Assembly: GCF_027744825.2 (NCBI RefSeq)
Contig: NC_071335.1
Location: 27,307,001-27,371,000, forward strand
Direction of reading: 5' to 3'
From: Synchiropus splendidus
Taxonomy: Eukaryota; Chordata; Actinopteri; Syngnathiformes; Callionymidae
Length of the DNA stretch: 64,000 bases
Program-made: the position numbers and the translations under genes
Notes under the pieces: model-generated
What the model was told of the DNA's origin: nothing
The model's database searches: none
The model's input: only the letters and a program-made list of their open reading frames with translations
Part shown: one piece after another, positions 5,796-33,492 of the stretch
Position numbering within the stretch: position 1 is the stretch's first letter
How the letters are laid out: every line of letters begins with the position of its first letter

Positions 5796-5899
<104 letters not shown>

Positions 5900-10751: not shown

Positions 10752-11605
10752 ATGAAAACCTGGTACCTGTTCCTGCTGGTCTACCTGCTGGGGAGCTGCT
10801 GCGGTAAGAGGAGGCTGGTGTTCAGTCACTTTCATAACTACATTACAACCTCCTGACAGGTGTAGAAAAAGAAAAAAGAAGTGGGGTTCTGTGTGAGGAG
10901 CCAGCCGAGGAGTGTGAAGGAAATGTTTGATCGCAGTGGAGGATTAAAGACAGACTGTTGAGGTTAGAGCGGTGTAGGACCATGATGTTCTCTCGTGATA
11001 TAGTTGTCTGTGGGGAGGATCAGACGAATCTCGGGCTGAGATGAGCAAGACAGAACGAGTGCAGGGCAGGAGATGGGAGTGAAGATGAACACAGTATATA
11101 GAGTCAGTCGTCCAGAGTAAAGGGCAGAGATGAAGGAGGTGAAGAGGAGAGTGCAGGCTGGGTGGAGACGACTGTGACGTCAGAGCTGCAGCTTTACAGG
11201 ACACTCACTGCCATGGAGACTCAGGAGTCTGAGTTAGAAGAGCCAGAGAGGAAGATACTGAGGTTGTCCATGGGAGAACGGGTGAGATGAGAAATATTGC
11301 GTTGGAGACAAAGTTCGGCAGGACAGATGGTTGGGACACGTGGCGAGGAGAGACACTGCATCAAGTCCGACAGATCCAATAGTTGATGGATACAAGCGAA
11401 ATAACTGTATTTGTACAATTTAAGTGTCTGAATTAACTCTAATCTCCTTTTGAAACAGAGGCTTCGAAACACCACAAGTAAGTTGATATTTCAAGTGTGA
11501 GTCACAGAAGGCGACTCATGGGTCTAAATTTGTTTCCTTTGTTCGTGTGTCTCGCTGGAATTCCACAGAAATGAAGCATGCAAGCCTGAAGAAGACTTCA
11601 AGCCG
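10752..11605 (+). CDS. Mesothelin-like gene, exons 1-3: signal peptide and N-terminal linker
   Basis: Exons 10752-10803, 11459-11477 and 11569-11605. Exon 1 encodes MKTWYLFLLVYLLGSCC, a textbook secretion signal with cleavage expected near the Cys-Gly. The ATG at 10741 is not used because its frame stops after four codons. Exons 2 and 3 are tiny (19 and 37 nt) and encode a charged linker (EASKHHKNEACKPEEDFKP). Confidence 0.8.
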
Positions 11606-14600
11606 GTGAGTGACATTCTTGGTGTCTAATCCGCAGCGATGAGAACGTCATGGACATCAGAAACTCAACTGTTCAAACACTTTGGAAACACTACAACTTT
11701 TACTTTGAGCTCCTGATCTGAGTTATCATTTTTCATTGTTTTCTTCACCTCAGTTGCCAACTCATTTTTTCATTTCAAATATTTACATTATATCTCCACT
11801 ATTTATAAACATGTATCATATTTTATGTTATTTGATTTAAATGAAACTTCCTTTCTTGTTTCAATCCATCAGTTTTATTTAGGTTTATGACAATCTAAGG
11901 TGTTCTTTAGTCCCCAAATTAAAGATTATTATTATTATTGTTTTTTAATATATACATATATTATCTAAGTCAAATGAATATTAAATTACACTACGTACAA
12001 TGTAAGTAATGAATAAAAATAAATATTAACATAAGATATTTATAGTGGGAAACAGGTAAAATGTAATAAACACATGTTTTTATATATTTGCCCCTGCGTT
12101 AGTTATTTTGGATTGTTTTAATTGGAAAATGAGTAAATAATACACAAGTAGAAAACAAAAAAGATCCAATAAATAATATATAATAACCAGGATGTTCACT
12201 ACAACCAATAAACTCTCTCCCCTCTGGGCCCAGGGCTCCACGCAGGCCTTCCTCCAGTGCGTGGGCTTGCCGTCCACGGACACTAAGAAAGAGCACGTGC
12301 GGGCTCTCAAAGACCTGCTGGAGGCCACGATGGACTTGTACACCTTCATGGTAGTAGAAGATGGAAAGTTTGATGTGCACTAACAAACTGTCTGAAGGAA
12401 TGTTGCTGCTACCTGAAAAGTTGGTTTGACAGGATGTTTGGATTCTACTGTCTGTACAGAAAAGTCTGACTGTAAAATCTAACTCAGACAAACTCAGTCG
12501 TTTCAGTTTCTAAGTGATTTACAGTGAAAAGTTGAGAAGCCAGCTCTGTTTAATTGTCTTTGGGTCTTTGGGTTTTAGGGCTCTTTGGGTTTTAGGGCGC
12601 TGGACTCTGACAGCTCTTCTCTTCACTGCAGAGAACAAGCCTGAAAGGGGTGCCGGTCCTCAGTATGAAGGGGGCTCTGGAATGGACCCCGGACAGAGAG
12701 TTTGAGAACGAAGACCTGGTGAAGATGTGGCTGGAGATCAAGATTCAACCGATGCTGAAATCCATCTCCAAACAGTTCCTAGCATGTTTAAGCACCAAGA
12801 ACTTCAGCTGCTCCACCTACCAGACTGTGTACGTTGCTCCTTCACCCCTGTGACAACCCCGACCCTGATGGCCGCTGTCTCTCGCCTCTTTAGAGTGAAG
12901 CAGCTCAGCCACCATTTCTTAGAGATGGATGAAACTCGACAGAGGTGGATCTACATGTTCTTCATGATTCCCTTCCTGTCAGGACACAATGTGAAAGGTA
13001 AGGGAGAGGTGGTCCTCTGAGTGTTGAGCAAGATGCTCTTGAACCTCAGAGAAATTCTGCTCCATGTTTACCAGCTGAAGACTTGAAAAGTATTGTTAAA
13101 CATGTGGTACATTGGTGTACAGGCTTTATATCTGCAATTAGGGTCTTGTTCACGGGTCAGGGGGAGACAGATCAGAGCAAAACTCTTCCTTTTATGTTGC
13201 TAGCTTTTCTGCAGAGAAGAGTGTAGGATGAAGTTCTCTCCGGAGGGAGTCTGGGACACAGAAGTTTTTTCCACAAAGACTGGGCCTCTGTGCTTTGACT
13301 GCTGCCCCCGCTGCATCTGGAATTTAGATGTGTGAACAGATAAGACCAAAGGTGTCTTCTGAAACAGCGCCTCCATCTTCAGAACCTTTGTTTTGTTTTG
13401 TACCCTCTGCCTGAAACCCCAAACCTCAAACAAGTTCCTTGATCATTCACTGACATCATAGTCCCTGGACACACAGATCTGTCAATCTGTCCATCACCAT
13501 AATAGAAACTGCTTCACAGTACATTTTTGAGTTGTAATAAAGTTAAACAGAGGAGAGAGAGCCAGTACATTGGTAGATGAAGATGTTGAGGTTGGAAATG
13601 CCAGGTAGAAGGTGGAGAGGAAGGCCACAGAGGAGATTGATGGAGGACATGAAGGACAAGAAGCAGAGGACAGGGTGAGATGGAGGAATGTGATCCGCTC
13701 TGACCAACCCTGAATAATATTTCCTATGTTCTGTCTTCGGTGACAATCGACATAGAACCCACAGAACATTCACTATTGGCTGATAGGTGCACGAACCCAC
13801 TCATGATCTTGTGTCATCTGCGTCTTTGGCAGGTTGTGTGATGCAAAATGAGAGCAGCGAGGAATGGCTGCTTAAGAACTTTGGCTACTTCAAAGCCATG
13901 GCCCGGTTCAGCGACTTCACCAAGATCAACCTGGCTTTCCGTGGTGTAAGCTTGAGTGTTTAAAAAACCTGAAACTGAACGTTTCCCGACTGATCGTGTT
14001 CCTCTGGCTCCCAGCTGGAGGTCTTACATCTGCTGACGTCCAGCCAGACGGCGGAGATGCTGCTGGTCTCGGACTTGAAGGAATTGAACGATGACATGCA
14101 GGCTGGCATCCTCCGCAGTCTGTCACTGAGGGAAGCTGGTCCTGGTCCCAGAGGGCCACGTGGCGGGGGCCACCGTCGGCCCGGCCCGGAACACAACTCC
14201 ACCTCAATGTCCAAATCTGTGTACAAGCCACCTTCGCCGGAAGATCACGTCAGATGGGTACTGTACTGCTGAGGGTGTACAATGTGTTGATGTTGTCAAA
14301 AGAAAGCCCGTAATTCCTCACTCATAGCCGGGAGTCCAGGAGTAGCTTCAACATTTTTTCTCCCTTTCAGGTCTTTAACGACTTCCTCTCCGCGATGAGA
14401 CCAGTTGGAAATGTTGTTCACAAGTTTGTGTCTTTGACCCACAAGGTACCAACCAACATCAGCTGTCGATTTAATGCTAACTAGACTGTTTCAAAAGCCG
14501 AATCTGCTGTTTATTTTTAGAAGAAAGAGTCGGAAATGACGGGCGCGGTTCTGACCCAGTTCGCGCTGGACTGCGCTCTGGCTGAAATGGCCAACAGGTA

Positions 14601-17600
14601 CAAGCCGCAGGTCCAGGAGAAGCCCGAGTTTGACGTGTTGGATTTGGAGGACTGGTACGAGCAGGTGGTGATGCCGTTGCTGCGCCGCTTCCTGCCGCAC
14701 CACGTGCTTCCCCTGCATGAAAACGTCAGGCTTGCGTTCGAGGAAGTCTTGTAAGTTCCATTGCAGCACAGATGTTTAAGCAACCAGAACACTGAGAAAC
14801 CATGAGAAACATAAGGAGCTTCATCCTGCCGCTACTCTTCCAAGACATTGAAATAAACTCTTTCTGAAACGCGAAATTCAACTTCATGAACTTTTTGGTT
14901 GATGGTTTGCAGGGAAGCAGATAACTCCATAGTGCACTGCAACAGTTGACGCGCTTTTAAGAGTTAGAAGTTTCTTTGAGATTGTCAGCAGTGATGCTTC
15001 AAATCAGCGGCCGTAGCTTGATGTTTCCAAAACACCTGGTGCTTTCATGGAACTTCTCTCTCCCAGACAATGGTTAGATAAAAACTTCAGACTTCAGGCT
15101 CTGATTTCTTTCGCTGCTCATCATCCTACGTACTTTCTTAACGCACCTTATATGATGTCTTCTTCGTATTCAGCTACCTGGATCGCCACATGGACGAACA
15201 AGACCCGGAAATTGAGGACGTCTGCAGCATCACTCTCAACAAGAGACCCTGTGTGGTAAAGTCTCATCTCAGTCGCGCTCACTACAGTGGTTTTCTTTCT
15301 GGCTGTTTTCAAGTGACGTTTTGTTTTTGCCTTCAGCTGACTGACACGGTGAAAAACGTCGCTCAGGTTCTGCATTGCGCTGCTCGCGCCAACCTCGAAC
15401 TGGACGAACAGACGGTCATGTGGTTGATAAACGAAATGTTAAAGCGCCTGAACTCGGTGCTGGAGGAGCTGACCACATCAGTAAGCATCATCCTTTTACA
15501 AGCTCAATCTTCCATCCTTCTTCTGTTTATTCATTCACTGCTTTTGTTATGCCATGCCACCACAGTGGGTGGAGTCTAGATGCTACATTTTTCAACACTT
15601 TTATCACTTGAAATCAAACTAAACTCTTGAACTCTGATGCAGCATACAGCAACATTCCTCATTTAGAAATGTGCAGTAATATTTCTATATTCAAAACCTC
15701 AGTTTAAAGTTCAATTTAATAATGTACAACTAAAAAAAATCCCAGAACAACATGCATTGCATGACATCAGTGACATAGTTTCCAGGCCGGATTTATTCAA
15801 AAGGTTTATCCTTTTGGGATATAATCTGTCATGTGCAGTAAAAATAGCGTTTGAATTGTAATTAATTAAATCCGTGCGTGAAACTGTAGAGCGCAAAGTC
15901 ATCAATAGGTGGCAGCTGAGATACGTTTTGCTGCCTACATTGGTAGCCATTTCAGAGTGAGTGAGTCCACACATGCTCACGGACAGGAAGTCAAAATAAG
16001 ACAAGGAGGAAACGCAGCAGTTCTACAGGAGTATAGTCATTTTGGTTCATTTTACTTTTTAAGCCCAGCTCATGGTCATCTGGGAGGTGTCCTCAGTCTT
16101 GAACCAAAGAAGGCAGACGTGGCTTCACAGACTATAAACAATCCCTCGATTTAATCTGTTGTTTCTTTTAGAACGTCCTGATGGAGGAGATTCAGGAGAT
16201 CTTCACCGAGGAGGATTCTCAGTCCATGACAGAGGAACATCTCAATGACCCCGAGTTCATCAGACTCTGGTTCAAGGTCAAGATGATGCCCCTCCTGCCC
16301 AACATTTCTGCAGATCTTCTCTTGTGCCTCAGCACCAAGAACTTCACCTGTCTGACCTACCAAACCATGTGAGTTTCCACATTCCACTCCACCGCCGATC
16401 GCCATCAACATCATCTTGCTCTGGCCGTGACATGAATCAGACATAACCAATCCCAAATGTTTTCTTCAAGTGTGGGAGCTTTCAGCCAGCAGAGCATTGG
16501 CTCCATATATGGTCACAGGATCTACGAACACTTCATCTTTCCCTTCCTACACGACTACTACAACACTTCCAGTAAGACACATATTTAGGTGATGGAGGTC
16601 TGGCACTTCTCTGACTGCTCCCTGCTGTGTTCCAGAGTGTTTGTCCAACGACAGCGCCCAGTGGCTGAAGTTGAATTTAGGTTTCTTCCTGGAATTTGCC
16701 AAGCTCACCGAACTTATCATGCTGAACCCACATTTCAAACCGGTGAGTCTTTATGAGAAGCATCTTCAGAAGCCTTCAGAGTCTGACTTCAGTCTTCGCC
16801 TCAGCTGGAGGTTCTGCCACTCTTAACTCCAGAGCACCTGGTGGACCTCTTGCTCTTGGATCTTCAGAGCCCTGCAGAGAGAAGAATCAACAAGGTGTTC
16901 GACTTCCTGCTCAGGGAACCGGAGAAATTCCCAGCCGTCTTGCGGTTACTCCCTAAAAAGGCTGAAGAGGTAGATGATTAGTCCAACACCAGACCAAAGC
17001 TCTCAATGATCAACAGCTACTCATGACTCACGACTCTCACTCCAGGTCGGCCCTCCTTGCAGTGTGTACAGGATGATGTGAGTACCTTCATGGGATTCTG
17101 CATTCACCTTTCTCTTCTCTGGAGATCACATGAAGATCAGATGGAGAAGTAATAACATGACTATGTACTGCTAGAAGTACTGCTACTCCTATAACTAATG
17201 TAATGCTATTGCTACTACATCCTCTAGTACTATGACTAAAACTGCTACTATTGTAACTAATATAACTGCTGAGGTCACTACTATAGCATATCATTCTTAC
17301 TGCTGTGGTTGCTGTTTTTTTAGTAGACGTGGTACTTGTCACCACAGTATCGCTGCTATTGTACTATATACTATTTTCTACTACTGCTACTACTATCACT
17401 GCTACTAAATGCTTTTCCTACTATTGTTGCTACTACTGCTGTGCTACAGCTTCAGCTTCCGCTGTTACTGCAGTAACTGGTACCACTACCACTTCTAATA
17501 CTTCTACTGTAATGCATGCTACGCTTTTCCTCAAATTCTGGTACAACTGCGACTGCTACAAGTACTTCTACAGCACATGCAACGTCTACTACCATTACCA

Positions 17601-20600
17601 CTAATTCATTCATGAACCCAACATGAAATGTGAAAGTGAATGATGCTTTTTAGCATTAAGGCCAGGTTGGTGTGTTCATGTGACAAATACTGTATAACTG
17701 TATAAATACTGAGATATTTACTCAAACATTTTATAAATTAGATTGAGATAATACCATCAAAGTTTCTCAACATCCATGGGACTTCAATTCTCCACATAAA
17801 AATATGTTGCATGAGTATTAGTAATGTGCTGTTGTTTCTCCTTCCAGTTTCAAGCGTTTGAACGAAGCCATGGCAGTGCGGCCTCTGGAGGACCAGTTCA
17901 TTGGGGAGACTATTGAGAAGCTCCTCAACTCTGCACCAGAGGGTCAGTCTCAAGTCTATATCGCAGACATGTGTGGTTCCAGTCTCAGGCTTACTAGCTC
18001 CAGCTTGACTGTACATCAAAGAACACCGTGTTTACGGCCCTAATATTGTGATGAGAAAGAAATAGCTGTCCAGTTTTACCATCTCCTTCTCAGTTCCTGA
18101 GTCTCAACTAGGTGTTTTTATCTCTTTGCATGTGGACAGAGTGTGTGACCAATGACATCGCGGTGAGTTCTGCTCTTGAATATTCATGTACTGTTCTGCT
18201 GAGGCCATTCTTGTTGTGTGTGAGTTGCCATTAAATCCATCTCCCTTCTGACCCTCAGTGCCCGATCACAAAGATCAATGGTAAGAGCAAATGTTTGTGG
18301 CTCTTGTTAGAAGTAGGTTTAGAGACGTAAACAGAACACTAAGAGGATATCTTGTTTTTGGATCACCAGTAGATCGAGATATTAGCGCTATCTGCTTGAT
18401 ACAATCATCAAAAACGAGAAATGTGTTTGATTTTTTTTTACAGTGTTATATTTATCTCCCTTGTTTTTCACCTCACCCGCATGCTGTCTGCAGTCTGCGT
18501 GCACGTCATTGCTTCGCTCTGTCATAACTTCAGCGCTTTTTCCATGTCTCTCTCGCTGGGTAAAGCTCTGACCTATGTTTCTCCAACACTTCTGGATGGT
18601 GCGTTAAGGAGCGTCCCACCCAAACTGACGCCTATAACCAGCCCTGCTAGTTTCATCATTTGTCTGAGTAACTTACTAAATGGTTGTTTTTGCTCTTCAC
18701 AGGGGCTCTGACCTGCAGAGAGGTTGACAGGTAAGTCCAGGTTCTGACTGACCTGCTGAGGCGCTTCATCTGACTTTACTCCGCTCATTCACAGCTCCCA
18801 CCTGGAGAGGCACCTCAACACGTCCATGGGAATCCCTTGCAACTTCACTCTGAAGGAATACGCCTGCGCTCAGGTGACTCTTTTCATGGCATGCTATTGC
18901 TTCAGTTCTTTTCTGTTGCACCCCCCTCAGGAAGAAGTAAGAGTTTCCCGTCCCTCAAGTCTCTGCTACCTCTGTTAAATAGCATCATTTGTCGATAAAA
19001 TGATCATAAGTACACCTCTGCATAAGATTGTGTCCTTGTTTACATTAAAGAAAAGAGAAAAGAAAGTGATATAGATCGACTTACAATAAAGAATATCTTT
19101 TTTAACATTGTTTTTGTCTGTAAGAGGAAAGACTTCAAGTGCATCAATTTGCCTGGAATTTAAAAAATATATATCATGAGTGGGGGCCCCCAGGGCTCCA
19201 CTATTTGAGAAGTTGTATACCAACTACAGCATGTCATGTAGACTCTTATTACTACTATGGCAAACGTGAGACGACAACTTGGAAGCACAGGAAGCAAAAT
19301 TTAAGCAAGAATACTTTTTGTTATTGTCATAAATGTTCTATATATTCCCAACATGCGATACGATAATAATTTGGAGATTCCTACTATACTTTCAATGGCA
19401 ATAAAATTAGAAGTAGTGAAGTTTATTCATGCGTTTTTTATGCTTCTATTATTTTTCTTTATTTTTTTTTATTTGCACCTGTGACTCGGAATTCCTCTGA
19501 TGTTGATGGGCATGGTGGGAATCAGACAAGCATTAGCCCAGAGCGTCGCTGCTGACCATAGAGAGGCATTTACGTGGGTGCAGATGGTTCAGGAGCATGA
19601 GAGAGTGTGTGGAGTCTGATGAACTCTGACTCAGTGTCATGGAAGGAAGACGAGCTCTGTGGCTGGGGATCAGAGGTCGAAGACAGCACAGGCAGGAGTG
19701 TTGCATGAAGGCGAGGCAAGAACTGCCACGGTATTATTGTGGTGCATTTGCAGTTGTGCAAAGAAAATATTTTGTTGCTCTTGAGTTTTGATTGCGTTCG
19801 TGCGTGTGTGAGTCAGTTTCACAGTTGAAGACACTAACTTTCTCCAAATCATTTTCAGCTCCAGACCTTCTCAGCCGATCACCTGGCGTCGCTGATGATG
19901 TGTGAGCTCCCCGGACCAGGCAGCAAGTCCAAAACTCTGTGGAAGATGGTTTTGACCAAAGTCTTCTCAGTCTGGGACCCAGCTTTGGACAAGCTAGACC
20001 AGATGGTGAGTGGTGAGTGCCAAGAGTTGTGATGGTGACACTCATCATGAGCCTCTCTTCAGCTCCCGCCTGGGCGCGGCCCTCCAGCAGCCACAGAACT
20101 CTTGGACCTGTTCAGAGAGATGAAGCTGGCGGGTCTGACGGAGGATCAGCTGAACAGCACCAGCGTCATCGGAGGGTTGTTTTCTGGTGGGATCAGGAGG
20201 CTGTTGCCCTTTGCTTCAGGGGGGTTCTTGGACTGTTTGAGTCGCCAAAACTTGAGCTGCGGGACGTTCCAGCACATGTAAGACAATATTTACGGAGTCG
20301 CCCGTCTCACTTGCTTTTTTCTAACTCTGAATTTCCATCTCCAGCGTGTGGGTGTTGAGCGATGTCAAGAGTGAGGACCCAGAAATGGTCGCTAAGAAGT
20401 TCATCATCCACTTCCTCTCACGTCCAGAAGCAGGTGAACACCGGAGCAGCTGAGTTTCACTGATCCCAAAAATCATAGTCTTCAGTGTTTTCTAGATGTC
20501 ATGGATCACTTGGTCACACACACTATCGATGAGGAAGTCTGGGCTTGAAACCCCAGTGTAGGCCATTGAGCAAGGTGTTGGTCGTGATGGGAAAACCCAT

Positions 20601-23600
20601 GAAGTAGACAGTGAAGTAAAGAGTATCGATTTCTATCCGCCCCAAAAACCATGCCTGCACTCTCTCTTCCTCCTCCAGCTGTCTCTTCACTAGTAAACAG
20701 CAGTCCTCCCCTGCATCAGGTGACCAGCGTGCACCAAACAATTGGCCATAAAAACATTGAATTTTAAAGGTATTCACCAGTGTTGAAGTGAGCCAATCAT
20801 TGTAGGGTGCGAAACAAGTTCACAATTTCACACTCCGAAACACAACACTGCAGCGTCGGTACACAGCCGTCACTCAGGGAGGGGATCATTGGGGTCGACT
20901 TTACTGTGTGTGTGGCTTCATACTCCTGCATGTGATATTAAAAACAAAATACAGATGAGCTCCAATAACTGCAATATAACTTGATGTACTAGCAAGAAAG
21001 GTCTGCAGTATACTTGACTTCATGATAATGTGTGTTCTGCTATACGTCTCCATGTTTGGGGAAAGCGCTTGAACTATCACGTTTGTCTTCACTTCAAACT
21101 GTCTCAACCATCTCCAGGTTGGGGTTGTTCCAATGGACTCAACAGCACCGAGTGGTTCATGAAGAATCTTGGTTCCTTTTCCGAGTTTGTGCCTGTGGAC
21201 AAGATGCTGCAGCTCAATCCATACTTCAAACCAGTAATGATTCGGCTTTAAGAGGAAGGAAAACTCTGCCTTCTTCTGACAGCGTTTTTCCTTATGATCT
21301 TTTCCAGTTGGTGGTTATTGTACACCTGTCTCCACGGCAACTGGCTTCCTTATTCCTGTTGAAGCATTCCAACATTCCTGATAAAGAGGTCCTCATTGTA
21401 GCAGCGTTTCATATGTTCAGCCAGTCTTCAGATGAGGCCGGATTTGATCAGTTCCTGTCCGAACTCGTTCTAATAGTTGCACAGGTAACAAGAATGTTTC
21501 CATCTTTAGCTTCCTTTCTTCTGTCAAAATTCATGTGTTTTTCTTCTCCACTTCAAGGCCAACATGACCTGTACGAACTACGGAACCCTGTGAGTCCCAG
21601 CCTTGTTTGTTTGTACAGAGAGGTGGATCAGAATGTGAAACCGTTCGGTTGGTCAAAAACTTTGGTGAAACTTGGGGTGGAGATCAAGTTTCTAGGTGTT
21701 TCTTATGAGTGAGGGATGGGTGGAGATGAACCAATGGCGGGAGTTTCTGAGGCGGCTGGGTGGGGCGAGCAGATGTGTAATGAGACGAGGACGGCGTACT
21801 CCACTGAGCATAATGCTGTTCTCCATGATGCGGCAGGTTCTCAGGATTGGACCGGGCCATAGAGAGGGCTTCTCCTCCATTCACTGACAAGGTGCAGCGG
21901 CACAAGATAAGCATATCTCTGCACCTGCCGGCAGGTGAGTGACGCGCAGATCCCAAGGTGACCGTCTGATTGTTGAACAACCAGAATTTATTTTTCACCA
22001 TAACACAATTTCTCTTCTTCCAGGCTGTGTCATTTACAGTGGAACGGTAACCATTTAACCTTTATTGAACACAGCAATGGATGTTTAACAGGGAGCTAAT
22101 GTCTGTCTTGTTTTTCCCTACAGTGCCGCGTGACTCCAGCAAACGGTAGGAGGTACTGTTCCGTCTTTCTCAATTGAAACTAAATTACTCACGATCATCA
22201 TCTTTCCAGAGACGGAGATCTGTGCCGACGTCAACAGGTAAATTCTGTCGTCTTCGTACCGTTGGGCCAATGGATTTTCGGTGTGGACACAAATGAATAC
22301 TTGGTTGCTTCAAACCTAAAATAAGTCAAAAGCATGCTGACTTACTGAAGCTTCACCTTCAGGTGTTAGAAACAGGACTGGATTGAGGATGAGATACAAC
22401 TGTAGCGTGTTGGTTCCTCTGGCCTTATGTGCTCCACTAGTTCTGACCTTTGACCTATTGGCAAAGTCCACCTGTTCTAGTGACCTGGGGGAAAGCCCAG
22501 ATGAGAGTGTCTTCAGCGTAGTTTTGGTCAGAAACTGTACATCAAATAAAGAGGTCCCTAAGTGGAACCCTGAGGAACATCTCTGCTTGTATTCCAGCTC
22601 CGTGGTGCAGCAGCACCTGGACAGTTGGAACCTGACTGGACACCAATGCCTCTTCAGTGTCAAGGAAGTTGCATGTGCAGAGGTACGTAAAGGGAAAGCC
22701 ATATTCGGGTGCTTCAATGACCCGCCTGTCCTGCAGCTGTCCATGTTGGAGGCGGCCGACCTAGCGGAGATCATGAAGTGTCATCGATCCACTAACTCCA
22801 GCGGCTCGAGAGCAGCCTGGAAGCTCCTTCTCTCCAAGGCCAACGGTGTTCTGGACATGTCTCTGGAGCATGTCGGCACCGAGGTGCGTCTCCGTGAAAT
22901 GCCCTGCCTCCACACCCAACTGACTGCCGCTCCCGCCCGCAGATGCTGGACCCCCACAATCAGGCCACGTCAGTGGTTTTGGATGTCATTCAGGAGCTCC
23001 GAATCGACTTCTTCAGCCTGGCCTTCCTCAACGAGCACGAGTTTTCCCAAAAGTGGCTCCATGGGAAACTCCGCCCCTTCCTCCCAGCGACCTCTCCTGA
23101 CTTCCTGTCATGTATGGCCGTGACAGATTTCAACTGCACGACGTACCAGGACATGTGAGGACACCCTCTGATCCTGATCTGATTTAACGGTGGCACTGCA
23201 CACGTTCGAGTCACCATCTTTTCTTTGGCTTCAGAGTGGCCACCATGAGCGTCCTGCATGTCCACATGCTTCACTCCACACAGGTGGCCGTCTACTCTCA
23301 CTTCATCAGGGTGTTCCTCACCAAGAACGACTCAGCAGGTCATTTTCTTTCCGTTTTGGGGGCCTTATCCTGAATAGCCAAGTTCTAAGATCATCCCGAC
23401 TTGCATGAACAACATGGAGTTATTCTCTCCAACCTCCAAAATGACCGTCTGCTTCTTGCTTTAATGATGAAAATGAAACTTTTTACAACTGGGGATTTGA
23501 GGGCAGTTTCATCTCACCGATCCCCTGTGTTCTCAGACCCTGGCTGTGATTTTAACAGCAACAACACCGGCGATTGGATCCAGCTCAACCTCAGATTCTT

Positions 23601-26600
23601 CCTCATTTTTGCCAGCTTCTCCGACCTGCAGATGTTCCGAGGAAACTTCTCAGGAGTACGTAACCGCAGATGGCACCTACAGAACTTCCTTCTCTAATGT
23701 CACTTGTGTTGCTGTGTGGTGAAGTTGGAAGTGCTGGAGCACCTGACGACGGCTCAGCTGGGGCAGATGTGTGCCACGCCCAATCAGATCAAGTCTGCTG
23801 CAGAGGTTGCCATGGTGATGGGAGCCGTCCAGGATCATGAGATGAAGTTTTTCTTTTTGTCCTTCTACTCTGCTTTGATGGTGAGTGTTAGCTATCAGAG
23901 TTAATCATCAGGGCCTGTTTTGGACTGTGGGAGGAAACCAGAGTGCCCAGTGATCCACCATTTTGGTCCTTCTTCAACAAGGGATGCTTGAACCTTTCAA
24001 CAGAAACATGGAGTGGATGTGCCTTCGGCGACGAGGCCCTCCTGGTTGGAGGCCATGTTGGAGAGAGCAAACCTCGCGCACGACTCAGTGAGCGACGCCG
24101 AGGTCGCCGATTGGATTCCTGTGATGGGGCCGTTCATCGTCGGCTTGTCACATGCTCATGCCAACTTGATCTTCAAAATACTCAGAGGAAGAGGCTGCAA
24201 CGTGGAAAAGCTGGGGTAAAAACACACGTCTTTTCATCAATCAAAGCACTGCGTTTACGGAATTTCAAATTTCAGAGTGGAGACTCTTGAATCTAAAGCC
24301 TCGACCATGAGTGAAACAACCAAGAGTGAAATCAATCGCCTGACATCCCAGATGGTTGCAGGTAGAGAGAGACTGACCTTGTGAATGAAGATCACGATAT
24401 CTCCATGTTAATGTCATCTCTTCATAGAAGGAAATTCCCTCCGGTGCATGGAGCCAGGACAGAGTCTATACGTGTTCCTGGAGAGCTACTTCGGGAGCTT
24501 CGGGTTCCCAAGCTTGACCCAGGTCATGTCCTTCATGTCACAGGGCGAGAGGCATCAGGTTGGTGTTCACCTTCCAGAGAGACCGCATCCGTCCATGATC
24601 TCAGGCGCGGTCAGGTTGTGAGAAATCCAGAAATCTATCCTTTATTTTTTCCATTGGTCGACTAATCGCATTTACCTTTGTTTGGACCTATTTGGAATTT
24701 GGGTTTCACCTAAAGTTGCTTAAATCATCTCACTGTGATACTCAGACACCATACATTATTAAACACGTATATGAAAATCATGACATACAATCCAGGAACA
24801 TGTATCCAGCCTGTGGTGCATGAAGCATGAAACCGTGGACAGAGAGCTCCAGTTCTTTGAAACTGAGCTCTTTATTGGTCCTTGAGAACAATTTCAAATC
24901 AACAATGTTCATATTCAGTGTGTATCTTGTATAAAATATCGGATCAACGTCCACATCAGTAGGTCTTTGAATAATAGTAAAAACGATTTGTTCAGTGTGT
25001 GCAACAGCAACAGCAATGTGACCAAGCGAGGCACAGATTCCAACGTTTTTTGTTGTCGGCGTTATCGATGACATCAACTAATCGTTGCAGCCCTAATTTC
25101 ATCATCCTTCCGCAGAAGATAAACTCCATGTCGCCCTCACAACTGGGGAAGTTCCTCAGACGTCCTAGAGTGGTGGACAGCCACAAAGAGCTCTGCGTTC
25201 TCTTCAAGATCTACACGCTGACCCCCTGGTTCATTGAGAAGGTGCGGACTTGAGTGCCACCCAACATGAAAAAGAAGTAACCATGACACTGCCCGACCCG
25301 GACAGGAACCCCTCGCAGAGGACCTGTACGAGCCGACCATGGAGTGCGTCTGGCCGTTGGCTCTCGGCAGCGGCAACGGGCGCGAGGCCGAGGCGTGGAA
25401 GAAAGGCCTGGACTGGCGCTATATGAGATACATCAGACGAAGCATGGTCGGGCCCAACATTACGCACTCGGCCTCCTGCTTCGGCTTCCAGATTTTGTAC
25501 GTGCGCTCCACAGTAGGCCGATCAGTGCTTCCGAACTCTTCTGACATGACCGTCCTTGTGTCTCAGTGTTGCGTGTTTGGGATCCTCCAACTTCACCGAG
25601 ACCGATTTTCAGCCTGAGCATGTTTATGAAAGCATCAAGGACTACCTGCCCTCGTCCTCAGGTGCGTGTGCCGGAGAGTTTTTTAAATCATGTTCATCAT
25701 CCCCTCGTGGGATAAAAAGATCATGTCTGCTGACAAGATTTTGGACTGTTAATGATGAGTTTTATTTTGAAAATGGTGCAGTGGGTTTCTCTGACTGAGT
25801 TCAAACAATCTGTTCCTATCTACATCCAGTACCGAGGTGTTACAACAGCAGCCACTCAGAGCTGAACTCCACCGCCTGGTTCGTCTTGTACATTGGCAAA
25901 TTCATCAACCTCGTCACTGAAGACGACTTCCTCTCATTTGGGTCTGAGGAGGTAAGTTTTTGGTGAAAACCGCTGCGGTCGAGAGGCTGACTTTCGTCTT
26001 CTCTCGGGCAGCATCTGGCAGCGTTCACCGTGAATTCGGAGTGCCTGGCGCTGCTCAACGCCTCCAATGTAACCACCGAGGTGAACGAGGTGTACACGGA
26101 GCTGATCTACATGCAGGACTCGGCGTTTCCCGTGGACAAGTGAGCTGCCACTGTTCCATGTCACTTGTCAAGCCTGAGGTTTCATTTGACAACTTCCATC
26201 TTCAAAATAAAAGCTAGTGAGGCCTGACACAGAGAAGCAGGCTTCTCCAGGATTTATCCGATGACTGGAAAGACTCGCCAGAACTGCTGGTTCTGTAGAG
26301 GTGAAACCCATCCAGCCAGCTTCGGTTGTTTTTTTTTCCAGCACCAACTTTCCTGGTCCAACTCTGTCTCTCCTCTCCACGTGTCCAAACCTTCTTATTG
26401 TCACCAAACTCCTCCACATCCATGACTCTGCACCCTGTCTGCACTCTCCTCTTCTCTTCTCTTCCGATCGTCGCTCTCATTCAAAACCATATATATTTAA
26501 TAGTGTCGTCATCGAGACCTAGACCCAGACTTTGAGGGCATCCTTTGTCTTTTTGAATTTCATTTTCATGAGTTAGTGGACGATTCATTTCACAGTTGCC

Positions 26601-29600
26601 ATTAAAAGTGACTCCATTGAGATTACTGCAATATTTCAGCCACAGTTGTTCGAAATGATGATTTTCATGTTGATCTTTCACATCACCCAGTCAGTTATGG
26701 CTTAATTGTGACATTATTTTGTCATGTTTATTGCAGCATATTTAGACTGGCACATCCCTTCGATATTTGCTGTTCATAGACAGGACATCTTGTTTGCTGC
26801 GTCTGCCGACTTGTGATCAGGGTGAAAACTGTCTCCTGCAGTGACTGACATCCGAACCTCTTCTCTGCCACAGACTCCCATACTCCTCCACATGTCATGC
26901 TCCCGGAGCAGCTTTCACGACGCTGAGTAAAGGAAGCACTGAGTGGATACTGGGCATTTTGCGGCAATTTTGTGTGGACGTGGACACTCAGGTGAAACAT
27001 GACTCAGCATTTCTGTCCTCTAACTGTACTGTACTGGGTTTACTTACTCCCTTAAAAGCCCTCCATCTTCTACTGAACTATGTCCCGTAACAAAAAGTAG
27101 GGCACTTGAAGTTCATTTCATGAAGTGTAGCACACCAAGTGTACTACTGGCCAGTCACTTCTAGTTTACGGAAAGTATACTCATGTAACACGTCTTAGGA
27201 CTAAATTGGAACATTTTCAGTTTGCTAAAGTATACTTTCAAGTATTCACAGTGAGTATACAAGAAATGTACTAAGCATATACTTTACATCCACATATAAG
27301 CAATGTATATTTTACGGTCTCACAAAATATAGTCAAAATCTCGGTAAACCACGTTCACCATCCCAAACAGCACACATTCACTTCCCAGCTGTGTACAGAT
27401 GGCAGTGTGCATATTGCCCTAGTACATCAACAACTGATGACTGAAGAGTACAATATGATTATTTTGTCATTCACTGAAAACCCTAGTCAACAACTGTCAA
27501 ATAGAACAAAACAATAACAGAGCAAATGTCTGTTTTCTGTTCCCAGTCATCCACTCCCATGATCCTTTGCTTCTGGATCGCCTCAATAATATACTGAAAA
27601 AAAGTAGTAAACTTGAAGTTAACTTTATTTAGTATACTTGGGTATAAGTATTAGTGTCCTTCAGTGTGCTACTTTTAGGTATTTCAAATGTAGTATGTCA
27701 AAAGTAAACCTCAAGCATACTTCCTCAGTGTTAGTATAAAATAAGTATTCTCATAGTACGCTTGAATAAACTTGTTTTTGCTGAGGGATATTAAAAACTA
27801 GCTTCTTAGCTGGCGTGTGCATGTGTTCAGTATGTTTTCATTGGACTGTCTGAGCCACTTGGGTGAAGGTGCGAGTCCCTCGGCAGCAGTCAAACATCAT
27901 GAGAAGAACTCTCATCCACCTGTCGTGCTTCACTCTAGATCGCTGCGGCGTTAGCGGGCAACTTTGGTTCCGATATCACAGCGGGCATCATCTCCATGCT
28001 CGGCAACCAATGCACCGGGCTGTCGACGGGAGTGCTGAGAGGGTGCCGATCCGAGGAGATCTACGGGGGTCGGCACAGACTGGGCGCCGTGCCTGGCTGG
28101 AACATAGGCCAGGCCAGAGCGGCCATGGAGAAACTCATGGCGTCAGTGAGTTTCCAGGTAAGTTCCGCAGCTCACCTTCCCCCCGATCCAACATGGCCTT
28201 GACCCTGCCGCTTCCTCCTGACTAGATGAACGGGCTCTCGATGGTCGACCTCGGCACGCTGCTCATTGGTGTCACTGGGGAGATGTTCTACAACGTCCAG
28301 GGCACGGACATTGTGACGGCTTCTGCGCACTCCAGCTTTGTTACTCAACTGAACGCTGCTCCACGAATGGCCCGGTTTATCGCCACCTACAAGGTGAAGT
28401 TAACTGAAGACTCTTTTTTTCATGCTATAAAATACACTCGCGTCTGTGTTGCACAAGAACTGTGAGGGACGAGCCACAAGTCTTCGGAGATGAGCACCGT
28501 TTTTCTAGATCAACAGCTCTGAACTGTTTCCAACCACCTTTTGTGTCTGTGGACCTGCTTTAGTAGGTCAAAGGGCTTCAGATAAAAGCTGTGGCAGGGG
28601 CTCGCTTGGAGGCTTGTGGGCACCTTTACCCTGGATCCCTAGTTCCGATGTCTCTCTAGCTCAGCTGAGAGAGGCGTGGCCACTAATGTTGTCACGGTTC
28701 CTAAGCATGTGATCAGAAGGGACTGAACTAAAATCTCTTCAGTGCAGGCATCAGTCACTGTCGGCATCACCAAAACCTACGTCTGCTTTCTAACTTGAAT
28801 GTGTCTTCTTCCCAGATGGTGTCGTTGTACTCAAACATCGAGCAGATGATGGTCAACATTCCCGACGACCTGGCCCAAGAGATCCCGCAATCTTTTCTGT
28901 TCAACTTTCCTGCCGATGTCGAGGGAAAGAAAAACATGAACAAGAAAAAGTGGAGTAGAGATCAGGTAGCTATGCACCATGGCGTCAGGAATAATGCTCC
29001 TATTCAGTCGGGGTTAACGTTTGATGCAACTCGGACGCGTCTTCTTTCATTTCAGGCTGTGTTTGTCTTACCGGAGCTGGGATCCGAGGCTTCGGTCTCG
29101 GCCATAGGAAACGTAAACACGTATGTGAAGACGTTATAACAACGCCGCGATTCCTTAATTCCTCATTGCTGTCGACTGTTGGAGTAACTATTCTGATCCC
29201 TCAGCTTGTCGTCCGCCGTGCTCCAAGGCTTCACCTGCACCAGCGTTCGAACCTTCAAAACATCCCAGACTGTAAAACTCATCAAAGCTTGTCGGAGGAA
29301 GAAAGCCAACAAAGTCAAACTGGAGGAAACTCAGGTAGGCGAGCGAGTTCTGCACCGCCCTGCTACAAGCTTCAGTTCAGGACACGTCTGCGTGAGCTGA
29401 GAGAAACGTGCAGCCAGGCGCCACAGCCTGCCTCGTGGCTTGTAACCATCCATCACCGGAGCTAGTGGTGCCACCTGTCCCTGCCGTCTGCTGGAGCTGA
29501 GACCGTTGTTTGCATGGCTCACCTCTGTTTTTCTCTGCGACAGTTAACCTGCATGTACAACTACATCAAGGGAGACTCCAACGTCACCAGCTATGGAGAC

Positions 29601-32600
29601 TACCCTGAAGATATGCTGCTCTACTACGAGTGAGTTGACAGGAATGGACGGGACGGCTGGCTCCAGGTCTGGCTGACCAACTCTGTCTGCCTCCTCAGTT
29701 ACTCCCTGGTGCCCAGGGCCCAGTGCAGGGAGTATTTCATGGCCATTTCCGAAGCCGACTTTTACGTCTTTTCGCCCCAACTCGCCTACATGCGGTCCAA
29801 TCTGATGCTCAACGCCGTCGATTGTCTGGTGAGTTGACTCGTCGAAGAGCTCCCGAGTCGCCCTCCTCTGACCTTCTTGTTTTCAGGGCGTGACGGGCAG
29901 CAATCTGACGAAGGAGAATGTGCAAGTGTTTGGAAACATGGCCTGCCAGATCAGCAGCTCCTACATTCAGAACTCGGATCCTTACATCCTGGAAATGCTG
30001 AAAAAGTGCAATGACCTCACCAGCGTGCAGGCAGAGGCTGTCGAGGCCTTGCTGCTGAGCGGGAGGACGTCATACGGGTATCTCGACTCTCTCAGGAAAC
30101 CATTCCATCCACTCCAGAGGAGCCCTTTTCCATTGATGAGACATTAGAATTAGGGATGCTCCGATCATGATTGGCCGATATCTGCCTGATCGCTGAACGC
30201 CCATCTCTTCCTGTCATTGCCGATCACATGAGCCGGCGCACTGATCAAGCCCCGCTGGTCGTGATGCGTCCGTTCCTCCCGACACACTGCTCACTGGGCA
30301 GCAGCATGTCTGCTGTGAAGGTTCTTTCAATCTGTTTACATCCTGCAGCTCATGCACCGGAAAATGTTGTGCGAGGAAGCGCCTTCACACTAAATCACCA
30401 GCACTTGACAAACATGAATAAACGGACGCCCGATTCTGGCCCCTATCACGCCATATACCAGTGTAATCTGGCGGCCAAGCTATAGTCGGGAAGCTGGCGT
30501 CCGTTTATTCATGTTTTGCAGACGCCCTCCTATCTCAAAGCCTGCTCTCAATCCATGTGATGGGTATTGGTGATCGGCAGCAAAAGTCCTGACCGGAGTG
30601 TCACTAAATGTCACGCCCTTCTCAGCCCGCAGGCTTTAGTTTGTAACTGGCTTCAGAAGAAAGAAGCCTTTATCACACTGCTTTTTGTTCTGTTACCAGT
30701 GACCCAAGCCAGTGGAAGTTCCGGACTTTGAAGAGCCTTCAGAATTTGCCTATGTACATGAGTTCCAAGTTCTACGACAGCGTTAGAAAAGTAAGTGGAA
30801 GCCTTTCACGCAGCAGTCGTCACTGCATCCACTCACTTTCCCTTCGACTGTCAAGAGACCTAGAAGGAGGTTCCTGAAATACTACTTCAAACTGCTCCGG
30901 AAGACCGTGAGCAAAGAGAAGCTTCAGGCGCTGAAGAAGAGCACGAGAAGAGCGAGGTCAAAGCGAGCTGTGGGTGAGTGGCGCGGTCTTCTAGTGGCCC
31001 GCAGCGGCACTCGCTCACTGGTGTTCCCCCGACACAGACAGCGACTGTAGGGTTGGAGAAATCACCTACGTGACCATCAAGGGCGAGGATTTCCCCGGCG
31101 AAGAGCTGGATGTGCAGCAGTTTAATGCCTGTCTCAGCTCTGACACCGTGAGCAAGTCTCTGGCTGAGATCGCTGCGAAGGTGGTGGAAGTTGAATACCA
31201 GCAGGTGGTTCTGGAAAAACTGCACCAGGTCAGTGCTGGATGTCATGTGACACGTTCGTGCTGTGTACCGCTCACTCCTTTACTGGTTGGATGTGACGAA
31301 GAAGAGGGGCAGCGTGATGGTGGGTGTGAAGGAGGAAGGACGCTGAAGACATGGAGAAGGTGAAGGAAAGAGGGACAATGGTGTGAAGGAGGTGAAGAGA
31401 AAGTCAAAGGGATGGTATGGGAAGAGATGAAGAGGATGTGGAGGAAACGTGAATGGGACTGAAAGGCTATGAAGGAGCGGAAAAGAGGAAGAGGACGTAA
31501 AGGGGGAGGTGAAGGAAGTGAAGAGAAAGTCAAAGGGATGAAGAGAAGGTGAAGGAATAGAAAGATGTGAAGGGGTTGAAGAGCAAGGGGTGAAGGTGGC
31601 TGACAGGAGATGAAGTGAAGGTGGAGATGGAAGGATAGAAGGAAGAAGATGTGAAGGAGTTGAACAAGAGGAAATGGAAGGGGACATACAGGAGATGAAG
31701 GTGAGAGGAAGACACAAAGTAGGTGAAGATGAGGAGAAGAGGGTACTAAAGAGGTGGAGAAGGTGAAGAAAGACACAAGGAGGTGAGGGAGGACAGGAAG
31801 AGGATGTGGAGGAAAGGTGGGACTCAAAGAAGATGAAGGGGACGGACAAGAGGAAGAGGACATGAAGGAGGCAAAGCTGAAGTCAAAGGAAATGTGAAAA
31901 GGATGTGATGGTGAGGTGGAGTTGAAGAAGGTGAAGGATGAGGAGGGAGGGAGAGGTGTTGGGCTGGAGACTGGTCATCTCCACAGCTAGGAATTGAGGT
32001 GTGCTGGCTGCTTCTGAAGGCCTACCCAGCCATGGTTCCCGAGGAGGAGGTGGAAGTCCTGGGCTTCGTGTCCCGCGCAGCCACCGTCAGCCACGTCGAC
32101 AAGTGGATCATCACGAAGGTCGACACTCTGGCCGCGCTGCTGGACCCGAGCGACGGCCTAGTGGCCAAGGACATGGTGGGCTGAATTCCCCAGAGGTGAA
32201 TTGCGGCACCTGACAAAGCCGGTTCCTCCCCCTCCAGGCGCAGGCCATCATCATCAGGTATCTGGCCGCTGGGAACCTGCTCGGCACGGACGAGCTGCGA
32301 GCCATCGGCGGAGCCAACCTTTGCTCACTGAACGGCAGCGTGCTGCAGAACATTTCACATGATGCCCTCAGGTGCGCAGCCCCTCAGTGGAGCTCAGCCA
32401 GGTGCCTCACCTCCAGCAATACCTGAACAAGTGTTGTCTGTCAGGGAGGCGGACCTGAAGGACCTCACCACCTGCTCTCTGGATGGGAAGAAGATCCTGT
32501 TCGCCATCGCTTTTGTCAGCTTCTCGACAAACACGCGCTCCACCGTCTCCTCCTCCACTTATAATCTCATAAGGCCGTTCCTGGGTGAGTCCTGTGAAGA

Positions 32601-33492
32601 CGCATCAGCTCTCCGGGGTTGGTCAGTCTCTCACTGACCTGGTGCTGAACTGGACCAGAGGCTCCTTGTGACCCCTATTTTATAGTGGGCTATTTTCTTC
32701 ACCAACAGGTGGCGCAACGACAGAATATGTAAGAACTCTGGCACAGTCCAACCTCAACGTAGACGTCCCCACGTTCGCCGGTCTGGATCCAGACGTCCTG
32801 CGGGTAGGACTTTGGTCTGACCATTTCCTGCAGGTGGTTTAAGGTCGTGGGGGCAGCAGTATGGGTGAGGAGGCCCAGACTACTGTCCACCCCCCGGGTT
32901 ACCTGAGAGACACAGTCTCTCCGGAGCGTCCCGGAACACCCACCTGAACAAGACGACTGTTTGGTTGTTGCATGAAGAACGTTTCTTTTTTCCCCCCTCA
33001 TGTTTTCCAGAACTTGAGTGTCTCTGACGTCGTGGGTCTGTTGGGGAACCACCTGTCAGACTTGTCACTGTACCAAAACGAAACAGGAGTGATGGTCTGG
33101 ATCGAAAATCAATTCCAGGATGAACTGGACAAACTGAACCTGGGACTGGCCGGCGGGAAGGCCACCCCAACCACCACGCAGCCTACACCCACCAAGAAAA
33201 ACACAGCGGCCACCACCAAGAAGGTCACTGGCACGAACAAACCCGCCACCACCAAGGCGACCACCCCCGCCGCCGCCGCCACCGCCACCACAGCCAGTGA
33301 GTCGCCGCCGCACACGGCCCTTCCTTCTTTCCTGCATCAGCATGACTGGCGTGTAGTGACACGTGAAGTGACACGCGTGGCTAATCATTTGACCCTGTCT
33401 ATGCAGGTAGCCACGGCAACCACATCAAAGCAGACGCCAGCCTGTTCTTCACCCTCCTGCTCCTCCTCACCCTCACCAGGGCATCTTCATGA
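10752..33492 (+). CDS. Giant mesothelin-superfamily precursor, 64 exons, predicted GPI-anchored
   Basis: By my model 64 coding exons join to 7710 nt (2569 residues plus stop) with every junction in phase. Order: signal peptide (1-18); repeat units U1 to U7 (about 37-1665), interrupted by two spacer cassettes; a linker region (about 1666-2190); RSKR at 2191-2194, a furin-type site; a mesothelin-like domain (about 2197-2495); a Thr/Ala/Lys-rich stalk (2496-2545); and a GPI-type tail (ADA-S then FFTLLLLLTLT). Mesothelin precursors are cut by furin into a released N-terminal factor and a GPI-anchored adhesion domain. The C-terminus (FLGGATTEYVRTLAQSNL) tracks mammalian mesothelin (FLGGAPTEDLKALSQQNV), which is why I prefer mesothelin to otoancorin or stereocilin. 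Mammalian mesothelin is about 630 residues, so this protein is about four times longer. Role in the fish is unknown. Exons are listed in the block entries that follow. Confidence 0.88.
12234..13945 (+). CDS. Mesothelin-like gene, repeat unit U1 (exons 4-7)
   Basis: Exons 12234-12350, 12632-12828, 12894-12997 and 13833-13945 (117, 197, 104 and 113 nt; intron phases 0-0, 0-2, 2-1, 1-0), residues about 37-213. Unit hallmarks are CLSTKNFSCSTYQTV across the second and third exons and SSEEWLLKNFGYFKAMARF in the fourth. The fold is expected to be an all-helical superhelix, as proposed for the stereocilin/mesothelin family. Confidence 0.85.
14015..15255 (+). CDS. Mesothelin-like gene, divergent unit U2 (exons 8-11)
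   Basis: Exons 14015-14257, 14371-14445, 14521-14750 and 15174-15255. Exon 8 starts with LEVLHLLTSSQTAEMLL, the same opening as exons 16 and 38. It carries a Gly/Pro/Arg/His-rich insert at about residues 254-273 that the related exons 16 and 27 lack. Exon 10 (VLDLEDWYEQVVMPLLRRFL) aligns with the second exon of the other units, but the Cys/TYQ motif is missing. Phases are 0-0, 0-0, 0-2, 2-0, so this unit does not follow the standard pattern. Confidence 0.75.
15337..16742 (+). CDS. Mesothelin-like gene, repeat unit U3 (exons 12-15)
   Basis: Exons 15337-15480, 16172-16368, 16471-16571 and 16636-16742 (144, 197, 101 and 107 nt; phases 0-0, 0-2, 2-1, 1-0), residues about 424-606. Hallmarks are CLSTKNFTCLTYQTI and NDSAQWLKLNLGFFLEFAKL. 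The Cys/TYQ block is almost identical to that of U1, so these two units are close relatives. Confidence 0.87.
16805..18873 (+). CDS. Mesothelin-like gene, spacer cassette 1 (exons 16-22)
   Basis: Exons 16805-16969, 17046-17077, 17848-17942, 18140-18162, 18259-18280, 18703-18730 and 18795-18873 (165, 32, 95, 23, 22, 28 and 79 nt). Exon 16 encodes LEVLPLLTPEHLVDLLL. Exons 17-22 are Cys-bearing micro-exons (CSVY, ECVTND, CPIT, LTCREVD, GIPCNFTL, YACAQ). Exons 18-21 together are 168 nt and could be skipped without a frame change. Confidence 0.8.
17165..17590. repeat. Imperfect CTA/TAC trinucleotide-rich tract in intron 17
   Basis: Degenerate ACT/CTA/CTG triplets fill most of the intron between exons 17 and 18 on the plus strand. 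The open frames crossing it are low-complexity and are not exons. Confidence 0.75.
19859..21233 (+). CDS. Mesothelin-like gene, repeat unit U4 (exons 23-26)
   Basis: Exons 19859-20005, 20063-20277, 20345-20433 and 21118-21233 (147, 215, 89 and 116 nt; phases 0-0, 0-2, 2-1, 1-0), residues about 755-943. Hallmarks are FLDCLSRQNLSCGTFQHIV and NSTEWFMKNLGSFSEFVPV. The first exon (LQTFSADHLASLMMC) matches exon 34 of U5 (LSMLEAADLAEIMKC) in length and pattern. Confidence 0.87.
21308..22682 (+). CDS. Mesothelin-like gene, spacer cassette 2 (exons 27-33)
   Basis: Exons 21308-21484, 21558-21589, 21836-21933, 22024-22046, 22124-22145, 22210-22237 and 22598-22682 (177, 32, 98, 23, 22, 28 and 85 nt). 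The size series is almost the same as in cassette 1. Cys positions correspond (TCTNYG, GCVIYSG, CRVTP, EICADVN, HQCLFSV, VACAE). Exons 29-32 total 171 nt and can also be skipped in frame. Confidence 0.8.
22737..23655 (+). CDS. Mesothelin-like gene, repeat unit U5 (exons 34-37)
   Basis: Exons 22737-22883, 22943-23154, 23235-23338 and 23537-23655 (147, 212, 104 and 119 nt; phases 0-0, 0-2, 2-1, 1-0), residues about 1099-1292. Hallmarks are FLSCMAVTDFNCTTYQDIV and NNTGDWIQLNLRFFLIFAS. Confidence 0.87.
23725..24558 (+). CDS. Mesothelin-like gene, repeat unit U6 (exons 38-41)
   Basis: Exons 23725-23880, 24004-24215, 24276-24361 and 24428-24558 (156, 212, 86 and 131 nt; phases 0-0, 0-2, 2-1, 1-0), residues about 1293-1487. 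Exon 38 opens LEVLEHLTTAQLGQMC. The Cys/TYQ and N-x-W hallmarks are strongly degenerate, but exon sizes and phases keep the unit recognisable (C-terminal exon SLYVFLESYFGSFGF). Confidence 0.8.
25040..25095. mobile_element. hAT-type terminal sequence ending just before exon 42
   Basis: Read on the minus strand the segment begins TAGGGCTGCAACGATTAGTT, a widespread hAT terminus. It ends at 25095, 20 bp before exon 42 starts at 25116, so the element end forms part of the branch-point and polypyrimidine neighbourhood. The opposite end is unclear. A related TTGGTCGACTAATCGC stretch lies near 24654-24669. Confidence 0.6.
25116..25951 (+). CDS. Mesothelin-like gene, repeat unit U7 (exons 42-45)
   Basis: Exons 25116-25241, 25306-25496, 25567-25661 and 25830-25951 (126, 191, 95 and 122 nt; phases 0-0, 0-2, 2-1, 1-0), residues about 1488-1665. 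Hallmarks are SCFGFQILFVACLGSSNFT and LNSTAWFVLYIGKFINLV. Confidence 0.83.
26012..30973 (+). CDS. Mesothelin-like gene, linker region and furin-type site (exons 46-57)
   Basis: Exons 26012-26139, 26874-26991, 27939-28157, 28226-28393, 28816-28965, 29056-29120, 29205-29334, 29544-29629, 29699-29828, 29887-30077, 30700-30790 and 30856-30973. Exons 46-47 hold a partial repeat (GSTEWILGILRQFCVDV). Exons 48-54 form a less repetitive helical region with paired Cys (LGNQCTGLSTGVLRGC). Exon 57 is very basic and ends KKSTRRARSKR-AV. RSKR (30955-30966, residues 2191-2194) fits the furin consensus R-x-K/R-R and sits where mesothelin is cleaved. The exon 57 start at 30856 is the only acceptor that keeps phase. 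Confidence 0.8.
27000..27790. repeat. AT-rich AGTATACT-rich block, possible MITE, in intron 47
   Basis: Multiple copies of AGTATACTT-like words in both directions fill the intron between exons 47 and 48, with CACTTGAAGTTCATTT near one end and AACTTGAAGTTAACTTTATT towards the other. There is no coding capacity. I could not define the ends or a target duplication. Confidence 0.4.
30151..30605. mobile_element. hAT-like non-autonomous element in intron 55 with internal hairpin
   Basis: The left end TAGGGATGCTCCGATCATGA matches the element at 40203. The right end (CCGGAGTGTCACTA) is a decayed inverted copy. Inside, a 21-bp perfect inverted repeat (30410-30430 and 30496-30516) encloses a 65-nt spacer. 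No target duplication survives. Confidence 0.65.
31038..33492 (+). CDS. Mesothelin-like gene, C-terminal mesothelin domain, stalk and GPI tail (exons 58-64)
   Basis: Exons 31038-31228, 31987-32175, 32238-32371, 32445-32584, 32709-32803, 33011-33296 and 33407-33492. The segment after RSKR runs about 300 residues and ends with LDKLNLGLAGGK, similar to the mammalian mesothelin LDTLGLGLQGG. A Thr/Pro/Ala/Lys stalk follows, likely O-glycosylated. Exon 64 encodes HIKADAS then a hydrophobic tail (LFFTLLLLLTLT) and a stop, the layout of a GPI-attachment signal. The stop codon is at 33490-33492. Confidence 0.88.
31315..31965. repeat. Long purine-rich (GA/GGA) tract in intron 58
   Basis: About 650 bp with imperfect GAAGGAGGTGAAG-type repeats and almost no pyrimidine runs on the plus strand. 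The apparent Ser/Pro/Phe/His-rich frames on the minus strand are translations of this tract. Confidence 0.9.

Follow-up and report, generated by a model that had tools for sequence, protein, structure and literature searches.

In a 64,000-nucleotide stretch of the mandarinfish (Synchiropus splendidus) genome (NC_071335.1, positions 27,307,001 to 27,371,000; hereafter called the “window”), there lies a real gene that, in our judgment, almost certainly encodes, as one gene, a giant mesothelin, with helical modules ahead of a mesothelin part. Mesothelin is a cancer marker in people and a major cancer target, and its normal role is unclear. The best overall explanation, toward which we lean slightly, is that one giant mesothelin gene encodes a modular helical extracellular tether.

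An independent rebuild, using a splice-aware gene-finding script and trimming by eye, gave 64 exons, 63 GT-AG introns, and a coding region of 7710 nt for 2569 residues with no internal stop codon. This is the size previously proposed by a sequence-only reading of the window. The script's initial model had 71-72 exons; we then took out or shortened the doubtful mini-exons by eye, guided by the visible module symmetry and with knowledge of the expected answer. The rebuilt model is the same protein as P0001 in the database (S. splendidus LOC128754785 isoform X2, 2557 residues), and this agreement, obtained after the non-blind trimming, is an independent check. The two differ at only two acceptors: those of exon 41 (24428 in the model and 24431 in P0001, one residue) and exon 59 (31987 and 32020, respectively, 11 residues). 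The longer exon 59 has 33 additional nucleotides and adds LGIEVCWLLLK, which is absent from the seven other rows of an eight-row ortholog alignment (A2). Therefore, we prefer the acceptor at 32020, which is probably the right one as judged from the sequences. Thus, the 64 in-phase exons of the sequence-only reading were reproduced, and its single long precursor with a signal peptide and a GPI (glycosylphosphatidylinositol)-like tail is matched by P0001 and the teleost relatives, while its length of 2569 residues, also given by the rebuild, probably needs to be reduced to 2557-2558. The search against fish proteins that it had suggested returned many teleost proteins that align over 90-100% of the length and are 43-48% identical.

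Does in-phase joining itself distinguish a gene? It is weak evidence, as the same script links 35-54 “exons” in all 20 dinucleotide shuffles. These chains are also in phase, and it is the score that sets the gene apart: 641 on the forward strand, versus 173 on the reverse strand and 64-134 in the shuffles. In addition, all 64 exons are occupied across 25 hand-picked six-module teleost orthologs, with a mean occupancy per exon of 0.82-1.00 and a mean identity per exon that is lowest in exons 2 and 51 (0.19) and highest in exon 53 (0.68). In a strict test, where any gap near a junction counted as a failure, 47 of the 63 junctions passed. A tblastn search of the 64-kb window with three giants detected no second gene copy: all 118 matches fall within 10.7-33.6 kb, and the 51 matches of P0001 are all on the forward strand.

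The C-terminal part matches the Pfam family Mesothelin (PF06060) with 229.4 bits, against a curated cut-off of 25.8, and all eight relatives tested also match. The match, which covers the final ~555 residues up to the stalk, starts at position 52 of the 624-position profile and thus includes the MPF half. Since this half is matched from residue 1940, the mandarinfish protein exceeds human mesothelin by about 1,900 residues, rather than by the extra N-terminal part of about 2190 residues that had been claimed. The predicted core carries the solved mesothelin fold, a helical solenoid, and is ~28-29% identical to the human core by structure alignment. A furin-type motif, RSKR, stands just before the core. 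Among 96 relatives with a core longer than 200 residues, a set of rows that includes isoforms of single genes, RX[KR]R occurs within 60 residues upstream of the core in 60, as compared to 113 of 4800 random windows; the remaining 36 lack it, and a looser basic motif is present in 92 of the 96. Ahead of the MPF-like half, the mandarinfish protein reaches 15.2 and 16.8 bits against the Stereocilin family (PF21058), below its cut-off of 26.6 bits, and four of eight relatives also match (best E = 1.7e-5). The mandarinfish giant has 33 N-glycosylation sequons and a Seriola relative has 63, as a surface glycoprotein might have.

Ahead of the mesothelin part lie six copies of a ~130-residue module. 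BLASTP aligns four of them with one another (E = 1.5e-10 to 1.3e-25); the two diverged copies emerge with an iterated profile. The sequence-only reading had also suggested structure prediction, and the AlphaFold2 model of two module copies is all-helical. No consistent Pfam family was found for 10 module members: 16 unrelated families, none of them ARM or HEAT, each match one or two members (best E = 8.3e-5, REV3_N), and we take these scattered matches as chance. No mesothelin chain is among the matches listed in the structure searches with the module pair. An origin of the modules by copying of the mesothelin core is not supported: in profile-profile comparison, the probability is 27% (25 columns) for the core and 0.4% for the MPF half. 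The MPF half and the core match each other with 86% probability over 91 columns.

Exons 13-23 and exons 24-34 share their phase series, and their lengths are nearly equal (five of 11 equal, the others close), which indicates that this 11-exon block was duplicated. As the block begins and ends in phase 0, it could be copied or skipped without a frameshift. The repeat unit is multiplied in some fishes, with copies up to 100% identical, and pairs of ~346-residue units are at least 95% identical in seven of the 15 fish proteins compared, including the mandarinfish model. The loach protein P0018 has four units that are 99% identical, whereas the pair in the mandarinfish shares just 30% identity. 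Assembly error may alternatively account for the near-identical copies.

Two database searches provided 113 related proteins with 3-13 modules each, and 101 of them match the core. Six modules are present in 30 of the 32 teleost proteins of 2500-2700 residues. Modules and the mesothelin core also occur together in turtles, marsupials, Xenopus, and sharks, and we accordingly reject the proposal of an N-terminal part added in fishes. The models from birds, a lizard, and a snake are module-only. Those of two sharks and a ray (P0106, P0109, and P0111) contain 2-4 mesothelin cores per predicted protein, and are probably tandem copies or merged neighbors. No placental mammal is among the 22 proteins from a search that scored the 7978 candidates sharing most words, and none is among the 13 proteins that a marsupial C-terminal query gave from 7995 scored candidates. 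The absence of placental mesothelin from the latter set is compatible with a distant relationship or with limited word sharing. A green turtle model, P0094, fuses the giant mesothelin to NARFL and hints at the neighboring gene in turtles.

Where does human mesothelin stand among these proteins? In the core trees, its neighbors are the teleosts (support 95/91 and 97/92); a separate clade unites the tetrapod giants. The approximately unbiased (AU) test rejects the grouping of human with the marsupials (p = 0.001), and thereby human MSLN as the direct ortholog of the marsupial giant, while its result is borderline (p = 0.045) for a group of human and all tetrapod giants. The human core is a long branch with an unsure placement, and paralogy of the tetrapod giants to human MSLN is therefore probable from these sequences, rather than proven. 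Since both sides carry modules, the array probably predates the split of the human/teleost and tetrapod-giant lineages, and we infer its loss toward human MSLN. Mesothelin may thus have begun in early jawed vertebrates as a giant extracellular helical cable of variable length, built from phase-symmetric exon-block duplications that are still amplified and homogenized in some fishes, with human mesothelin as the anchor left after the loss of the cable; we consider the odds of this history to be even.

How might the giant protein work? Its architecture runs from the modules, predicted to be helical, through the weak stereocilin-like stretch and the MPF-like half to the furin-type site, the core on a Thr-rich stalk, and the GPI-type tail. 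A furin-type protease would cut between the N-terminal part of ~2190 residues and the anchored core of ~300 residues. The long part, staying on the anchor or released from it, would act as a multivalent tether from epithelial surfaces to mucins or gels, and the module count would set its reach and the number of its binding sites. We propose the tether because human mesothelin binds mucin and a gel-attachment role was suggested for otoancorin and stereocilin. According to an excerpt of PMC10035497, human mesothelin is furin-cut, GPI-anchored, solenoidal, and CA-125-binding, although the title of a cited paper states that furin is not required. An excerpt of PMC2628672 presents stereocilin and otoancorin as suggested helical lectins attaching cells to the tectorial membrane. 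The cleavage, anchoring, location, and binding of the giant are inferred by analogy to such proteins. Cleavage at RSKR would separate the two parts, and the long part may then leave, stay stacked on the anchor, or become part of a gel. Taken alone, the tether mechanism is a tentative proposal, somewhat short of an even chance.

Could gene prediction have merged two adjacent genes, one for a secreted protein of modules alone and one for a shorter mesothelin that has a start of its own? Module-only models do exist (e.g., P0098, P0102, P0104, P0105, P0057, and P0068), and some marsupial and turtle models (P0114-P0120) are core-only or nearly so. However, the merged form recurs at a similar length in the six-module teleost proteins described above, and the Macrotis and Sarcophilus giants contain a hydrophobic start, 13 modules, RNKR, the core, and the tail in a single chain. 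The short marsupial models (784-874 residues) have their first residues within the sequence of the long protein, and by eye no signal peptide is seen there. Moreover, four sauropsid module-only models (P0098, P0102, P0104, and P0105) stop after the same DG exon boundary with VSFS or VSFT, which looks like a translated GTGAGT splice donor, as if the intron had been read; these ends could reflect annotation or intronic polyadenylation, and we rejected a special shared C-terminus of these proteins for this resemblance. A merger of two genes is thus very improbable.

The other alternatives accept one giant gene and differ in its function. The ~2190-residue part could leave the cell surface and act at a distance as a soluble signaling factor, in line with the furin-type motif before the core and with the soluble nature of human MPF, as stated in an excerpt of PMC13080647. 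The variable copy number and the near-identical units would, however, be less expected of a ligand with one fixed shape than of a structural or adhesive element, and we regard such a factor as unlikely. Slightly less likely still is a role in the inner ear or lateral line, where the protein would be what stereocilin or otoancorin is elsewhere and would attach the otolithic membrane or cupula to hair-cell epithelia in fishes. The Stereocilin matches in the relatives point this way, as does the otoancorin P0125, found with a marsupial query (E = 3.3e-17), which has one weak module-like stretch (E = 3e-6). However, homology does not place expression, and the fish mentions in the consulted parts of two papers are of mslna in salmon skin (PMC12339338) and an MSLNL-mapped gene in salmon gill (PMC7316992). 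The epithelial tether remains the function that we propose.

Table 1. Features of the mandarinfish giant mesothelin gene (window positions; residues of the 2569-residue model)
Feature	Residues	Position	Strand	Evidence
Whole coding region, giant mesothelin LOC128754785, 64 exons		10752..33492	+	Rebuild, database protein, ortholog exon occupancy
Exon 1, signal-peptide-like start MKTWYLFLLVYLLGSCC		10752..10803	+	Gene model; hydrophobicity 2.4 in first 35 residues
Module 1	101-229	12707..14062	+	Profile search
Exon block A (exons 13-23; coding length 996 nt; phase 0 at both ends)		16172..20005	+	Exon phases
Module 2	497-622	16247..16852	+	Profile search
Exon block B (exons 24-34; coding length 1032 nt; phases match those of block A)		20063..22883	+	Exon phases
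Module 3	837-958	20162..21352	+	Profile search
Module 4	1180-1307	23039..23769	+	Profile search
Module 5, diverged	1376-1501	24097..25157	+	Profile E = 5e-21
Module 6, diverged	1568-1665	25420..25951	+	Profile E = 1.2e-18
Weak Stereocilin (PF21058) match	1804-1847	28107..28306	+	E = 0.012, below curated cut-off
Pfam Mesothelin region (MPF-like half and core)	1940-2495	29095..33157	+	E = 9.4e-68
Furin-type motif RSKR, just before core	2191-2194	30955..30966	+	Motif
Mesothelin core (exon 59 start 32020 preferred over 31987)	2199-2495	31043..33157	+	Pfam, alignment, structure
Thr-rich stalk	2496-2550	33158..33432	+	Composition
Hydrophobic GPI-signal-like tail (predicted)	2551-2569	33433..33489	+	Hydrophobicity after Thr-rich stalk
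AATAAA 3′ of stop codon (second at 33662)		33621..33626	+	Sequence

Within the gene, intron 55 contains a 27-nt inverted repeat (30410-30436 and 30490-30516, 93% complementary, 53 nt apart) resembling a miniature inverted-repeat transposable element, and intron 58 (31229-31986) is purine-rich on the forward strand; over 30001-32000, the GC skew is 0.25 and the AT skew is 0.18. Elsewhere in the window, a class I glutamyl/glutaminyl-tRNA synthetase domain is encoded at 3198-3611 on the reverse strand (PF00749, E = 8.7e-30), in a gene that we take to be EARS2, probably. A RING finger and a SAM domain lie in neighboring frames at 46958-47833 on the reverse strand, presumably in BFAR. Two C2H2 zinc-finger genes on the forward strand (55046-55687 and 59594-60553) have similar C-terminal parts. 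A perfect 72-bp tandem duplication is located at 4370-4514, and a perfect (GT)48 repeat at 5798-5893.

No description of the giant mesothelin form was found in the literature searched, with most subscription journals outside the reach of the search. NCBI already has models of the giant, as “uncharacterized” or “mslnb” and mostly without description, and so its sequence counts as known, while its description seems to be missing. Because giants of this kind range from sharks to marsupials, the short protein of humans may be the remnant of a far longer one. Should a giant modular tether be the older form, then the function of mesothelin should be sought in the fishes, frogs, turtles, and marsupials that retain it. 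Furthermore, no Pfam entry convincingly covers the repeat family of the module, and the near-identical units in some fishes offer an example from vertebrates of a helical surface protein that changes rapidly in length.

The human MSLN precursor shares with the mandarinfish protein the PF06060 match over the MPF-like half and the core, the basic site before the core, a GPI-type tail (predicted in the mandarinfish), and the helical solenoid core. In contrast, it has 622 residues (PMC10035497), versus ~2557 in the mandarinfish, and no module array. Otoancorin and stereocilin have distant sequence similarity, and a helical superhelix was predicted for them earlier (PMC2628672), but each of the two otoancorin models compared has a single weak module-like match. 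The teleost mslnb/mslna models (NCBI) have the same architecture and, in many cases, the identity given above, whereas their module number varies, with up to 4254 residues in Misgurnus. The turtle and marsupial giants likewise combine the modules, the MPF-like half, RX[KR]R, and the core in one chain, but they have 12-13 diverged modules, spaced ~197 residues apart and mostly 17-33% identical, in place of the ~346-residue double units of fishes, and their cores form a clade apart from the human and teleost cores.
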